The notes under the pieces are model-generated. The model was not told the origin of the DNA. It saw nothing but the letters and a program-made list of their open reading frames with translations, and ran no database searches. Shown here piece after piece: positions 8,658 to 15,800 of a stretch of DNA of 64,000 bases. The translations under genes and the position numbers were made by a program. The stretch's first letter is position 1. Every line of letters begins with the position of its first letter. Origin of the DNA: Capsaspora owczarzaki ATCC 30864 (taxonomy: Eukaryota; Opisthokonta; Filasterea); contig NW_011887303.1 in NCBI RefSeq assembly GCF_000151315.2, positions 826,409 to 890,408 of the forward strand. The letters run 5' to 3'.

Positions 8658-9918
8658 CTCTCCCGTCTCTCTTCCTCAGGTGAATCACTGTGCCTGATTG
8701 GACTCTACGTCCAACGCCGCCGCGAGACAGCTGCACGGCTTCAGATGCTGTCGGCGTCCGTCAACCAAGACCCGTTCGCGTCAAGTTACGCGTCGCCCGA
8801 CCCGGCAAGCAGCTCGCTTCTGCCACGGACAGCGGCAAGCAAGAACGCCGATGTGGACACGAGCAAGCACGTCGATCGAATTACGCACAAGCGGACGTGG
8901 CGGCAGGTGCTCATCTTTCTCATCCCGACCTGCTTTGATCTCACTGGCACGACCCTCGCCGGCATTGCATTGCTGTACTGCGCCGCTTCCGTGTGGCAAA
9001 TCATGCGCGGGAGCATTATCATTTTCAGTGCTGTGCTTTCCGTGCTCTTCCTGAAGCGCACGCTGGGCCCGCACAAGTGGACGGGCCTGTTCATTGTGTT
9101 TTGCGGTCTGGCGATGGTCGGCGTCGCCTCTGTGCTTGCTGACAGTGGCGATGACAGCCACCCGACGTCCGAGGTCGTCCTTGGCATTGCTCTCAACCTT
9201 GCTGGCCAGCTCTGCTCGGCCGGCCAAGTCGTTGTCGAAGAAAAGCTCATCAAGGCCGCAAACTACCCTCCAATGGAAGTGGTGGGCCGCGAGGGCCTCT
9301 TTGGTGCCCTCATCTCCATGTTTGTTGCGCTGCCTATCGTCTACTTTATTCCCGGCAGCCAACCCTCGGAAGTTGGCAGCCACGGCTCCTACGAAAATGC
9401 CCTGGACGGCTTTGTCCAAATGTACCACAGCGGGGCTTTGATTGCATTCGTCGTCGTGTACGTGTTTTCGATTGCATTCTACAACTTTTTCGGGCTCGCC
9501 GTCACCAAGGCCATGACGGCCGTTCATCGGACGTTGATTGACGCCTGTCGCACCGTGCTGGTCTGGCTCGTTGGTCTGGTCATTTACTACGGCATCACCG
9601 ACAGCCTCGGCGAGCAATGGACGAACTATTCCCCACTTGAAGGTTTGTTTGTGGACGGGTGTCTATTTGTCCTTGTCTTGTTGTTTTGAGTTTTTTTTTT
9701 TTTTTTGATGGGGTGCTGACCCATCTGAGTGAGTTGGTTTCATTTTTCATTCTGCTGCTCCAGTGGCCGGATTCCTGACACTGGTATTTGGAACGCTGGT
9801 CTACAACAATATTGTCAAACTACCTGGATTCAAGCACGATGTACCACCACCGACATGCAGCGAAACCCAACCGTTGCTCAGTCCGAATCTGAATGCGGGC
9901 AACCCTCAAGTTGTTTGA
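8241..9918 (+). CDS. SLC35F6: Solute carrier family 35 member F6 homologue
   Basis: Exons 8241-8350, 8454-8524, 8680-9642 and 9764-9918 give 432 residues. It is a drug/metabolite-transporter-superfamily protein with about ten hydrophobic helices. It follows the animal SLC35F6 closely: a start with TGSINTLSKKAQ, the C-F-D-L-T-G-T-T-L-A helix, QIMRGSIIIFSAVLSVLFLKR, the VVEEKLI stretch, GREGLFG, YFIPGSQPS and TVLVWLVGLVIYYG. The animal protein sits in lysosomal and mitochondrial membranes and its substrate is not settled. The phase-2 junction between exons 1 and 2 uses a GTGATT donor at 8351; the other donors are ordinary. A (CT)n tract precedes exon 3. Confidence 0.9.
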
Positions 9919-10231
9919 TGAATACAAAGTCACGTTCAATGTTACAACTCTGTGTAAATGTGGTTTCGGTGTGTCTTCCTTGAATTGACTGAATTGACTG
10001 AATGGCTGACTTGACTGAATTGACTGAATTGACTGAATTGACTGACTTGACTGGAGTGACTGTCTTGATGTTGAGTTTGGAAAGTGGCAGCTGACATACG
10101 AAATCTCTCCCCAGTTTTGGATTTTCACTCTCTTTTGATTGTTCACTCTTTTTCTCTTGTTTTCTCACTCTTTCTCTTTGTTTCTCTTTTCCTTTACGCT
10201 GCCGTCGTCACTTTAGTCACATTCACACGCA
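9919..10231. other. Intergenic gap with 9-base tandem repeat
   Basis: This is the 3' end of the SLC35F6 gene and the leader of the bHLH gene. Between 9980 and 10062 the unit GAATTGACT recurs about nine times with small variations. Nothing else was recognised. Confidence 0.6.
9980..10062. repeat. Tandem repeat, unit GAATTGACT
   Basis: About nine 9-base copies, some imperfect (GAATGGCT, GACTTGACT, GGAGTGACT). It lies about 170 bases upstream of the bHLH-hemopexin start codon. Confidence 0.85.
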
Positions 10232-10249
10232 ATGCAGTCGACGGGCGGC

Positions 10250-10281
<32 letters not shown>

Positions 10282-10423
10282 GCAGCAGCAACTCCACTCT
10301 TTGCCGCTCACGATTGCAGGCCTCGCTGAGCTCGCTGCTGCCAACAGCCACGGCCACGGCCACAACCCGAGCAGCAGCGGCAATCCCAGCATGTTCTCGC
10401 TCACGGGCAGCGGCATTGGCCCC

Positions 10424-10454
<31 letters not shown>

Positions 10455-13037
10455 CCGGCGCCGGCGGCAGTTCGTACGTCGGCTCTGCGGTTTCAATGAC
10501 GCTCGCAGCCGCAGCACAGCAGCAACAGGCCCACGCAGCAGCAGCAGCGGCGGCAGCAGCGGCAGCAGCAGCAGCATACTCACCGCACTACATGCAGCAG
10601 CTGGCGTACATGCACAGACCCCCGCAGGCGCAGCTTTTGCAGCAGCTCCATTCGCAGTCCGACGCCTCGGCCTGGGGTCAGCAGTCGCTCTTCCCCGTCC
10701 AGGTGGCCTCGGCTGCGTCTGCTGCGTCGCTCGCCGGCTTCAACCACGCTGCCGTGCTCGCCTTGCAGCAGCAACAGCAACAACAACAAGCACTTCATCA
10801 GGGCGCGAGTGCTGCTGCTCCTGGCTTCAATGGGATTGCTGCACTGGACGGCCTCCACTCTGGACTTTTCCCCTCATCAAGCCAGGGCCAGAGCCAGAGT
10901 TTCATCCAAAACCAGCTGCTGCAAAACCAGCTGCTCCACAGCCAGCTCCAAAGCCAGCTGCAGAGCAGGCCCAACAAGGGCACGAGCGTGGTCTCGTCCG
11001 GCGCCGGATCGACCGCGTCGTGCGTTGACAACGATGACTTGTCTGCAATGTCATCGTCGTTCGACTTGGAGGGCGACCGTGGCGATCTGTCTGCAGGCAC
11101 AGGCGACGAGTACACGGATGGCATGGGCGACGACGACGACGACGACGACGACGAAGATGACATCTCGGACATGGAAGAATTTGACACGCATCTGTTTGGC
11201 GGAGCGCCCGGAGCGAGCTCATCCTCGTCGACCGCAGGTGGAGTTGCTGCAATGTCGGCACAGGCGCTCGCTGCGGCAGCTATCTCCGCTGCGTCGGCGC
11301 CCACAGCGACAAAAACCGCCGCCGCCGCCGGGAAACGCTCCAAACATCCAGCACGTGACGCTGCAGCGGCTGCCATCTCGCACGCCGACGACGCGAGCAC
11401 CATGAGCATTGTGCCAATTACGCCAGACTTGCTTGTGGACGCTGCCGCCGCGGCTTCGTCTGCGCGCAGGCGCAAGCGACCGGCCGACGGCACCATGCTC
11501 GAAACCCTGCCGACCGAAGCCGTCGCACAGGCCGTCGCCAACGCCGTGCAGAGCTTGCACGAAACGATTGGCTCGCGCAAGCGCGCTCGTCGCACAGAGT
11601 CCTCGGAGGAGACTGCGCATCGCATCATGCGCCGCGAGCTGAAGCGCGCCATGAAGTAAGAAAGAGGGGGCGGATGGGGGTTTTCAGTTTTTGTTTGATT
11701 GGTGTTTTGTGAGACATGCCACTCACACCAAACCTTTGTTTCGTGTTCTCCTCTTTTGTCGTTGTCGCTGTGTCTGCAGTAAGGAAGAGAGGCGCAAAAA
11801 TCACATTGTCATTGAGCAAAAGCGACGCCTCATTCTGAAGCAGCGATTTGACGAGCTCGAGATGGCCGTGCCGAGCTGCAAAGATATCAATCCAAATCTC
11901 AAGGTTGCACGACAGCCCTACATTCTCAAACTGGCGATCGAGTACATCAACCATCTCCAAACCCAGAGCGATCAGGCCAACAACCGCATTCTGGAGCTGG
12001 AGGCTGTGAATCAGGCTCTGAGCGCAGAGCGCCGCATTCTTGTTGATCTTGGTCTGGAACGTCGTCGCGTGCTGCTTGAGATTGCTGCCCGAGCGAACGG
12101 CTTTTTGGTATGGGTGATTTTGGAGTTGAGGTTTCTTTTTTGGCTCGATTGAGGCTGCTCGTTCTGACGACTGCTTTTTTTTTTGCTTTGCTTGGTTTGA
12201 ATTGCTCCCTCTAGTCTTACGTGAAGCAAGGCAAGCGAAAACTGTACGTGTACGTGGACCGAATTTACTTCCGCTACGACCTGGACGACGAAGTGATCGA
12301 TTTCGGCTATCCGCGCCCCATCAACATGACCAACTGGGTCAATGTGCCCTTCTCCCGAATTGACTCTGCCGTTATCTGGCAAAATAACAAGGTTTGTACA
12401 TGGAACAGGCGTCAGTTTGAATGTGGCGATTGGACTAAGTTTTTGTACATTGTTTTTCTCTGTGTGTGGGTGTGTGTGTTTTTTTTTTCTTTTTTTTTGT
12501 GCCAGGCCTACTTGTTTAGCGGAAACTACTATGCTCGGTACGACACAAGTCTCGAACGTGGCGATGAAGGCTACCCGCGCCTCATCTCCACCGAATCCTT
12601 CCCTGGATTGTCCTTTACATCGATCGACGCCGCAGCCAACTGGGGCAACGGCAAGGTGTGATGACACAAAATGCCGCTGCCAAACGCGCATGCGTGTGAG
12701 CGCTTTGCAGAGATTCTCAGCCCCGACTGACTCATCTTTTGGCATCTGCTCTCAGGTCTATTTTTTCAAAGGGCGCGAATACTGTCGGTATGACATTGCG
12801 CTGGATCGCCAAGATGCCGGCTACCCGAAATTGATTGAAAAGTACTGGCCAGGCGTCTTCCCCGAAGGTGTCTCGTCCGTGCTCAAGTACAACAGCTCTA
12901 CGGCGTACTTTTTCCGCGACAACAAGTACATTGCGTTCAATGTTGGTGCGGATTGCGCAGAAGGAGAAGCGAAGGTGCTCGAGTTGACCAGCAGCAAGCT
13001 GTTCTTTGAGCGATTGGAGGAGGAGCCGCTCTTGTAG
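10232..13037 (+). CDS. bHLH-leucine-zipper transcription factor fused to hemopexin-like repeats
   Basis: Exons 10232-11655, 11780-12107, 12215-12391, 12506-12655 and 12756-13037 give 786 residues. Residues 1-470 are low-complexity (poly-Gln, poly-Ala, a run of Asp, then RKRARR). The bHLH starts near residue 475. Its basic part (KNHIVIEQKRR) has His483, Glu487 and Arg491 in the positions of Max/Myc-type E-box (CACGTG) binders, followed by helix-loop-helix and a heptad zipper to about 575. Residues 585-786 are hemopexin-type beta-propeller repeats, each with a Y/V-x-F-x-G/D-x-x-Y-x-R-Y-D core (YFRYD, YYARYD, YCRYD). Introns 3 and 4 fall in phase 0 exactly between repeats, after Asn-Lys and Gly-Lys. 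The 107-base gap between bHLH and hemopexin exons is intron-sized and leaves no room for a second promoter. Confidence 0.85.
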
Positions 13038-13469: not shown

Positions 13470-15800
13470 CTACAAGCTCTCGTAGGCCCAGCGTGGTGGA
13501 GAAGAGGACTGCTGCGCGTCAGTGCCGCTCGGCCCGCTAATGCTCGGTCGAGGACTGGATGAGGCCGAGATTGGCGGAGAGCCCACCGAGTGTTGGTGTG
13601 CAGATCCGCGTTGTGCGTTGTCTCCGCGGCGTATCGTACCAGCACTCCGCGACGAGCTTGCTCGCGGGGTCAGAGCCGCGTTCTGGCGCATTTCTTGCAA
13701 AAAGGCCAAGCCTGCGTTGAGCGACTGCTCGATGGTTGGCTTGTGGGTGGCACAGGTCAATTCAACGTGCACTTTGCGATCCACGTTGGCAGCTCGTTCT
13801 AGGAATAAGTTGCGAATGTATGTGGCGCTTGCTCCAACATCGGAATCGTCCCCTGCCCAAAAAAAAAAAAAAAAAAAAAAGCAATTCCGTGCTTCGAACT
13901 GAGTGCTCGCGAGCACACAACGTGGCACTCAAGCCAACAATACCAAATAGGACTCGTACCAATGTACCCGGGCAAAAACTGGCGAAGTGGACGAAGTGGG
14001 ATTTTGGTCGAGAACAAATCAAACTTGTTGAGCAAAACGGTGAAAGGGACGTTCTCGAGATGCGGGTCGCGTAAGAGAGACTCGAACAGCTCCAGTCCAT
14101 CAGTTAGCAACAGCGACTTCTGCAAGACGAGAGTTCGAAAACAAAAGAGTGAGCCACCAAAACGCAATTCGTCCATTGTTGCTGCCATTCCGTGCTCGCG
14201 CTTACCGGCGATTCTTCACCATCAGCAGCTTCGTCCAAATTGTCAAAGGAGTCGGTTGCAGGCAACGTGTCTTGATATGTTTCGTCATAACTGCTAAGCG
14301 ACACGAAGAACACGACGCCAGAAACGCCGTCAAACAGATGAATCCACTTTCGCCGCGCCGACTTTTGTCCAGCGACATCGATAAATCTGGCGATGATGCA
14401 ACAGCCAGAAAGTAATAGGAGAACGAGGAGCGGATGATGGAGTGAGCGAGAAAGATTCGACTGTAAGATTGTTTCGGCAAAGTTGGCTCGAACAAGGAAT
14501 ATAACCTTACGTCCACTTTTGGCTCTTGATGACAAAGTTATGCTCGACCACACCCAGTGTCTTGACGCGCATGCGAATCACGTCCTGCTCACAGGGAGTG
14601 AACGTCGGTTCGCTAATGCGATCAATTTCGTTGAAAAAGCTGCGAGTGATGCCAAAACAAAAACCAAAAGCCCAAAATGAGCACGCCTTACTTGATGTGT
14701 GCCCACAGGGCAACATGTGCATTCATCGCATCAAGCCCACGCTACAGTACGAACGCACTAGATGGCGCAATCTGGCACGGGAAACGGAAGCTCGTTCCGT
14801 CGCTCAAAGCAAGTTCGAATCGAAGTGCTAAAAGCCCACAGGGTTTTGACTAGTGGATAGACGTGGCACTGGAACTTGTCATCCGTCCAAGCGATCACTG
14901 GCGGGGCGAATGAGTGCGGCAGAACCTGGGTTGTTGGCGCCGCGTTGTTGGATGCCGCAAATCCGATCAGCTCCTCCACGTAAGACTGTGTGCAAGTCGA
15001 GGCAAGTAGTACATTGTTTGAAAAGACCACCACAGTGAGATCATAACAGTGCATACTTTGGCATACAATGCTTTGACTGTCTTTTGGGGTGACTTTGTTG
15101 ACGAAAGTGTCTCAAAAATCTCGAAAAAAACAAAACTGACCTGAAATTGCGACTCCATTGGGATGGCTAGGATTTGCAATCCCTTGATGAGGGCGAGCAT
15201 TGCGTCGAGTACATTATCGTAGATGCTAAACTTGTATTCCGTCCTGTCGTCCGACGAGAAGCCGCCCGCATAGAGGACGCGCATCTGCTTGAGCAAGGTC
15301 GTCTTGCCCGTGTTCCCGCCACCTGCACCCAAGGGACAAAAAAAGCGCGCCCGCCGAATCAGTCAGTCAGTTGAGAATCGTACGATACACACTTGGTGCG
15401 AATTCAAGCCAGGGCCAGAGCCAGAGCCAGAGCCAGAGAGAGCAAACAGTGACGTGCGAATCGAATCCCAAACAACCACAAAACCACACACTCAACCAGC
15501 ACAACCACAACAGCTCCTCAGCGACGACGACTGACGATGAGTGAATGAGTGAATGGAGAATTGGCAGGGCTGGAAACACAGCAAGCGGGCGGTACCGAGA
15601 GTGAGGACGCGGTTGTCTTGGAGCTGGCGCTGGTTGTCTCGAGCAAGCCACTCGTCAATCCGCAGCGACTTGACCATCGACTCGAAGAACGTCCGGTCGT
15701 CCCCTTTCAGCTTGGACACCTTGTGCAGGATTTTGGTCCACTTTTGCTCATTCTCGGCATCGCTTGCAGACGGCGTCAGCAGCGACGACGGGTCCAGCAT
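13470..15800 (-). CDS. Divergent heterotrimeric G-protein alpha subunit
   Basis: Seven exons: 15596-15800, 15141-15322, 14759-14985, 14511-14639, 14206-14386, 13960-14119 and 13470-13852; 488 residues. GTPase signatures in order: P-loop G-G-G-N-T-G-K-T (family norm GAGESGKS), the helical domain with LW-x(6)-I-x-x-C-F-E-R-R, switch I with the catalytic Arg in R-M-R-V-K-T, switch II D-V-A-G-Q (norm DVGGQ, catalytic Gln kept), WIHLFDGVSGVVFFV, the guanine-specificity motif NKFD, and TCAT. It lacks an N-terminal Met-Gly myristoylation signal. After the alpha-5 helix it carries a Ser/Pro-rich tail of about 75 residues where normal G-alphas end and contact receptors. It presumably binds GTP, but receptor coupling may differ. 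Confidence 0.85.

Follow-up and report, generated by a model that had tools for sequence, protein, structure and literature searches.

Gene structure of the locus

The window, a 64,000-nucleotide stretch of the genome of Capsaspora owczarzaki, a unicellular organism that is probably closely related to animals, contains on its forward strand a candidate gene (positions 10232–13037) in which a bHLH-zipper region is followed in frame by a hemopexin propeller. Its five exons, with boundaries set by eye, are separated by GT-AG introns of 124, 107, 114, and 100 bases and join into a single frame of 786 residues; the coordinates and the 107-base intron given in an earlier sequence-only reading of this DNA are exact. 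Exon 1 (10232–11655) encodes a low-complexity N-terminus with Q/A-rich runs, an acidic tract (residues 293–318, positions 11108–11185), and basic NLS-like clusters (RRRKR, residues 412–416; RKR, residues 449–451), and ends at the donor GTAAG. Inspection of the N-terminus by eye revealed no signal peptide. Exon 2 (11780–12107) carries the basic region, the helix-loop-helix (residues 479–535, positions 11790–11960), and leucine-zipper-like heptads (residues 534–576, positions 11955–12083), and runs to residue 584. Beyond intron 2 (12108–12214, GTATGG...CTCTAG), exon 3 (12215–12391) corresponds to hemopexin blade 1, exon 4 (12506–12655) to blade 2, and exon 5 (12756–13037) to blades 3 and 4 and the stop codon, all on the plus strand. 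Intron 2 is in phase 0 and the frame is open throughout, bearing out the matching splice phases described previously for the bHLH/hemopexin join.

Introns 3 and 4 lie at equivalent spots in successive blades, each in phase 0 after an AAG lysine codon (12389–12391 and 12653–12655). Intron 3 (12392–12505) has 114 bases, a number divisible by three, and contains no stop in frame; if retained, it would separate blade 1 from blade 2 by 38 additional residues, of which many are hydrophobic. Just 5' of the gene, about nine TGAATTGAC units stand in tandem at positions 9981–10062. The neighboring frame at 8736–9641 (plus strand) matches a nucleotide-sugar/SLC35-type transporter (E = 4.3e-11), and the frame at 13799–14215 (minus strand) has a partial G-protein alpha match (35.1 bits, below the cut-off of 48.8).

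The bHLH-zipper region and the hemopexin propeller

The in-frame pairing of a bHLH-zipper with a hemopexin propeller, which the sequence-only reading had proposed, is upheld by Pfam, with both families above their cut-offs in one frame. HLH matches residues 479–535 with 28.1 bits (cut-off 20.7, E = 1.7e-6), the C-terminal part matches Hemopexin with 100.7 bits (cut-off 21.3, E = 4.1e-29; two stretches pass alone), and these are the sole families at E values up to 1. Judged by these profile scores, both domains are far above chance.

Against a profile of 24 other bHLHs from the same genome, the bHLH region scores 32.7 bits over its full length (24 of the 30 fetched bHLHs were used for the profile and the tree, omitting L043, L044, L045, L046, L047, and L049, with cores shorter than 44 residues). 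Group B (E-box) bHLHs carry His, Glu, and Arg at basic positions 5, 9, and 13, and H483, E487, and R491 fit this H-E-R arrangement. The zipper heptads are present and imperfect (L534, A541, L548, L555, L562, R569, and I576). In phmmer searches of the PDB, the region is matched better by MITF (E = 4.6e-6) and TFEB (E = 1.2e-4) than by Max (E = 0.006). Its nearest match in its own genome is L026, a bHLH with the motif HIQAEQKRR (E = 1.6e-6), whose own best match is Max. In the tree of the genome bHLHs (26 rows), which has one starred branch, the region is unplaced. The earlier description of this part as a Max/Myc-like bHLH-zipper can thus be kept as far as the bHLH-zipper is concerned, but the assignment to Max/Myc is too specific, given the PDB ranking and the unplaced position in the tree.

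Four hemopexin repeats are discernible by eye in the propeller, which in phmmer searches of the PDB matches MMP-14 (E = 4.6e-16) and vitronectin (E = 6.4e-15). Classical heme-binding hemopexin uses histidine ligands (bis-His), and the 202 residues of the propeller include no histidine at all. On this ground we reject classical bis-His heme binding, and heme sensing, one of the functions suggested earlier, is disfavored in this form; binding of a metal, of another ligand, or of a protein is possible. In MMP-type hemopexin domains, a disulfide joins blade 1 to blade 4. This bond cannot form here, because the two cysteines of the propeller lie in blades 3 and 4 and blade 1 has none.

A second gene with the same domain order

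The genome search covered 27.46 Mb in 29 contigs, which also yield two Runt and six T-box matches, in keeping with Capsaspora owczarzaki. With the Hemopexin profile (PF00045) and E values up to 0.001, it returned at least three matches, two in the gene described above and one on contig C17 (C17:291904-292026, minus strand). With the propeller as the query and E values up to 10, five matches were found, all within these two genes, so that the C17 gene is the one hemopexin gene detected in this genome besides that of the window. This second gene (C17:290928-294035, minus strand) can be modeled as seven exons with GT-AG introns, with boundaries again set by eye, encoding 801 residues in the order Ala/Gln-rich N-terminus, acidic tract, bHLH, hemopexin, and SAM; as in the window gene, the acidic stretch precedes the basic region. 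The order bHLH-hemopexin-SAM is unusual in itself. Pfam identifies Hemopexin (E = 2.5e-14, two stretches passing alone), SAM_1 (E = 4.6e-13), and SAM_2 (E = 5.2e-8). The SAM match (residues 644–701) has four residues in exon 5, the others being encoded by exons 6 and 7, and thereby supports those exon joins.

The bHLH of the C17 gene is a weaker match. Its HLH hit (E = 0.0057, 16.9 bits) falls below the Pfam cut-off of 20.7 and covers the basic region and helix 1 only, and it is missing from the 31 HLH matches in the genome. Against the profile of 24 genome bHLHs, it scores 22.2 bits over the first half only, compared with 8.0 bits for the best of 2000 shuffles. Its best PDB match is USF (E = 0.025), and its basic region shows by eye the same H-E-R pattern as the window gene.

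Compared pairwise, the propellers of the two proteins match with E = 2e-28 and 35% identity, and the bHLH regions with E = 0.006. In both genes, an intron in phase 0 immediately precedes blade 1; the propeller of the C17 gene lies within one exon, unlike the split propeller of the window gene. In genome searches with E values up to 10, the C17 bHLH is not among the 13 matches of the window bHLH, nor is the latter among the five matches of the reverse search. The two bHLHs are not sisters in the tree, where that of C17 groups with L033 (88/80); their sisterhood is not supported, and the test does not reject a clade uniting them either (p-AU 0.345). By their shared domain order, the two genes would form a small two-gene family.

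Continuity of the frame across intron 2

We consider it very likely that the fusion of the bHLH-zipper and the hemopexin propeller is real. The join is inferred from DNA and is backed by the second gene with the same domain order. The acceptor TAG of intron 2 stands in frame immediately before exon 3, and blade 1 is already under way at the first in-frame Met of that exon. Consequently, the propeller cannot start in exon 3, which, with a stop immediately upstream and no start codon to take in the whole of blade 1, must be spliced to upstream sequence. The propeller exon of the C17 gene is built alike: it has no in-frame ATG ahead of blade 1, and a stop lies two codons upstream of it.

The bHLH and hemopexin parts might instead belong to separate neighboring genes, or mostly to separate transcripts, with retention of intron 2 yielding a bHLH-only protein and the propeller being translated from another start. 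Such a division would draw on the frequency of intron retention in Capsaspora, where, according to a passage of PMC3870316, 11.6% of the examined introns are retained at 20% or more in at least one stage. Retention of intron 2 would end the protein 14 residues beyond exon 2, after the zipper, and a frame within the intron (from the ATG at 12110 to 12214) reads by eye as a short hydrophobic, signal-peptide-like stretch. However, this stretch terminates at the TAG right before exon 3, whose first Met comes too late to restore blade 1, only 107 bases free of AATAAA separate the two parts, and the second gene shows the same order with a SAM domain further downstream. We therefore regard separate genes or transcripts as highly improbable, and the signal-peptide-like frame as probably a chance product of a T-rich intron. 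Within a continuous fusion, intron retention could remove the propeller from the protein. In cystic cells of Capsaspora, bHLH factors are among those raised, although the passages of PMC3870316 that describe this do not name the present gene.

Bacterial proteins resembling the propeller

With the propeller as the query, 22 bacterial loci are recovered among 70 stretches. The best of them is 43% identical to it across 180 residues and scores 150 bits (BLAST), compared with 96 bits for the C17 propeller and 72 bits for MMP-14; the bacterial loci were found via peptides of the propeller, and their closeness stems partly from this selection. By these scores, the propeller is closer to bacterial hemopexin-like proteins than to the two MMPs compared. 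An unrooted hemopexin tree of 18 rows splits the two MMP rows from the other 16 at 100/100. This tree includes 14 of the 22 bacterial loci; L059, L062, L063, L064, L068, L070, L072, and L073 were omitted as short, partial, weaker, or in the wrong frame. Among the seven bacterial reading frames inspected, L062 and L064 are wrong frames, and the N-termini of L052, L054, and L059 are signal- or Tat-like by eye. None of seven candidate stretches from viral contigs was confirmed.

A bacterial origin of the propeller is likely on this comparison, which comprises peptide-recruited bacterial loci, two MMPs, and the Capsaspora genome itself. The tree that holds the two Capsaspora propellers together, as possible sisters, scores 0.69 log units above the free tree (p-AU 0.545). 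By BLAST bits, 17 of the 22 bacterial frames match the window-gene propeller better than the C17 propeller does, and 9 of the 22 match the C17 propeller better than its Capsaspora counterpart does, which makes two separate captures possible. In an extended scenario, horizontal transfer brought in a propeller of bacterial type, which came to reside in the nucleus and now serves a new bHLH subfamily of two genes as its regulatory domain, sensing a ligand or metal; as a whole, this appears unlikely to us. If true, these would be the first transcription factors to use a hemopexin propeller as their sensor, and one of the two would oligomerize through SAM.

Discussion

With moderate confidence, we propose that the window gene encodes a nuclear group B-type E-box bHLH-zipper factor in which the propeller serves as a protein-docking or dimer-stabilizing module. 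From the sequence we infer that the exons are spliced in vivo as modeled, that the protein is nuclear and binds E-boxes, and that the propeller has a docking role. The protein would dimerize via its bHLH-zipper and bind E-boxes in the nucleus, and its Q/A-rich, acidic N-terminus would provide activation. As hardly any linker appears to separate the zipper from blade 1, a homodimer would present two propellers at the end of the coiled coil, and each presumably four-bladed propeller could act as a docking or dimer-stabilizing platform for co-regulators. In known proteins, SAM is an intracellular oligomerization module. A docking or dimer-stabilizing role is the best fit and accords with the added SAM domain of the C17 gene and with reports on nuclear MMP-3, whose hemopexin-like domain is described in a passage of PMC5554797 as being needed for transcriptional activity in the nucleus.

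Alternatively, the propeller may bind calcium, another metal, a polyamine, or heme ligated by residues other than histidine, thereby altering bHLH-zipper dimerization, DNA binding, or location. An ion channel runs through the center of hemopexin propellers, and small ligands are bound by some of those from plants. Predicted heme binding is discussed for a plant hemopexin in part of PMC8586548, and a passage of PMC2266911 presents the photopexins of bacteria as putative heme binders. By eye on the alignment, both fusion genes retain the inner-strand Asp in blades 2 and 3 but lack it in blades 1 and 4 (several bacterial rows also lack it in blade 1), and with Asp in only these two blades, ion binding is possible but not clear. 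Whereas the C17 propeller contains three histidines, that of the window gene has none, and without histidine or a blade 1 cysteine, neither heme sensing through the known ligands nor a disulfide of the MMP type is likely. Taking both sides together, we see ligand sensing as a tentative and rather doubtful alternative.

The propeller might also be a degenerate passenger, derived from a bacterial-type donor and without present function in the factor, as could be suspected from the loss of the inner-strand Asp in blades 1 and 4 and from the fact that only two Hemopexin stretches pass alone in each gene. This is improbable in light of the two copies, which have diverged to the identity given above and yet have each retained an open frame and a Hemopexin match above the cut-off, a combination that points to lasting selection.

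Hemopexin propellers have mostly been described as extracellular modules, whereas in this genome they are detected only on two putative bHLH factors and look bacterial. If this reading is true, these genes would be a clear case of domain capture producing a new kind of transcription factor, and they pose the directly testable question of what a propeller does on DNA. The sequence-only reading was aware of no published transcription factor of this layout, and among the matches listed in open-licence titles and abstract beginnings, a scope outside which the Capsaspora genome paper and the 2011 transcription-factor survey lie, none describes it.

With the group B bHLH-zippers (MITF/TFE, Max, USF, and MLX/Mondo), the window protein shares the H-E-R basic region and the HLH, followed by zipper-like heptads in imperfect form. 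We know of no group B bHLH-zipper with a hemopexin domain, and the tree does not place the protein in any of their subfamilies. With bacterial hemopexin-like proteins of the photopexin type, the propeller shares the repeat pattern NWGNGK-YFF...RYD...GYP, although the bacterial set compared here is without the photopexins themselves. In contrast to the window protein, the six bacterial proteins scanned with Pfam have Hemopexin and no DNA-binding family above the cut-off; a PaaX_C match in L052 is sub-threshold (19.4 vs. 22 bits). With the hemopexin domains of MMPs and vitronectin, the propeller shares the hemopexin repeats, of which four are discernible by eye. Unlike MMPs, the protein has neither a protease domain (Pfam finds no Peptidase M10 in it, and there are 0 matches across the genome) nor the blade 1 cysteine. 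An MMP-like or secreted protein was considered and rejected on these two grounds, on the N-terminus as judged by eye, and on the SAM domain of the C17 gene. A further parallel, nuclear MMP-3, is a moonlighting secreted protease, whereas the window protein would be a dedicated bHLH factor.
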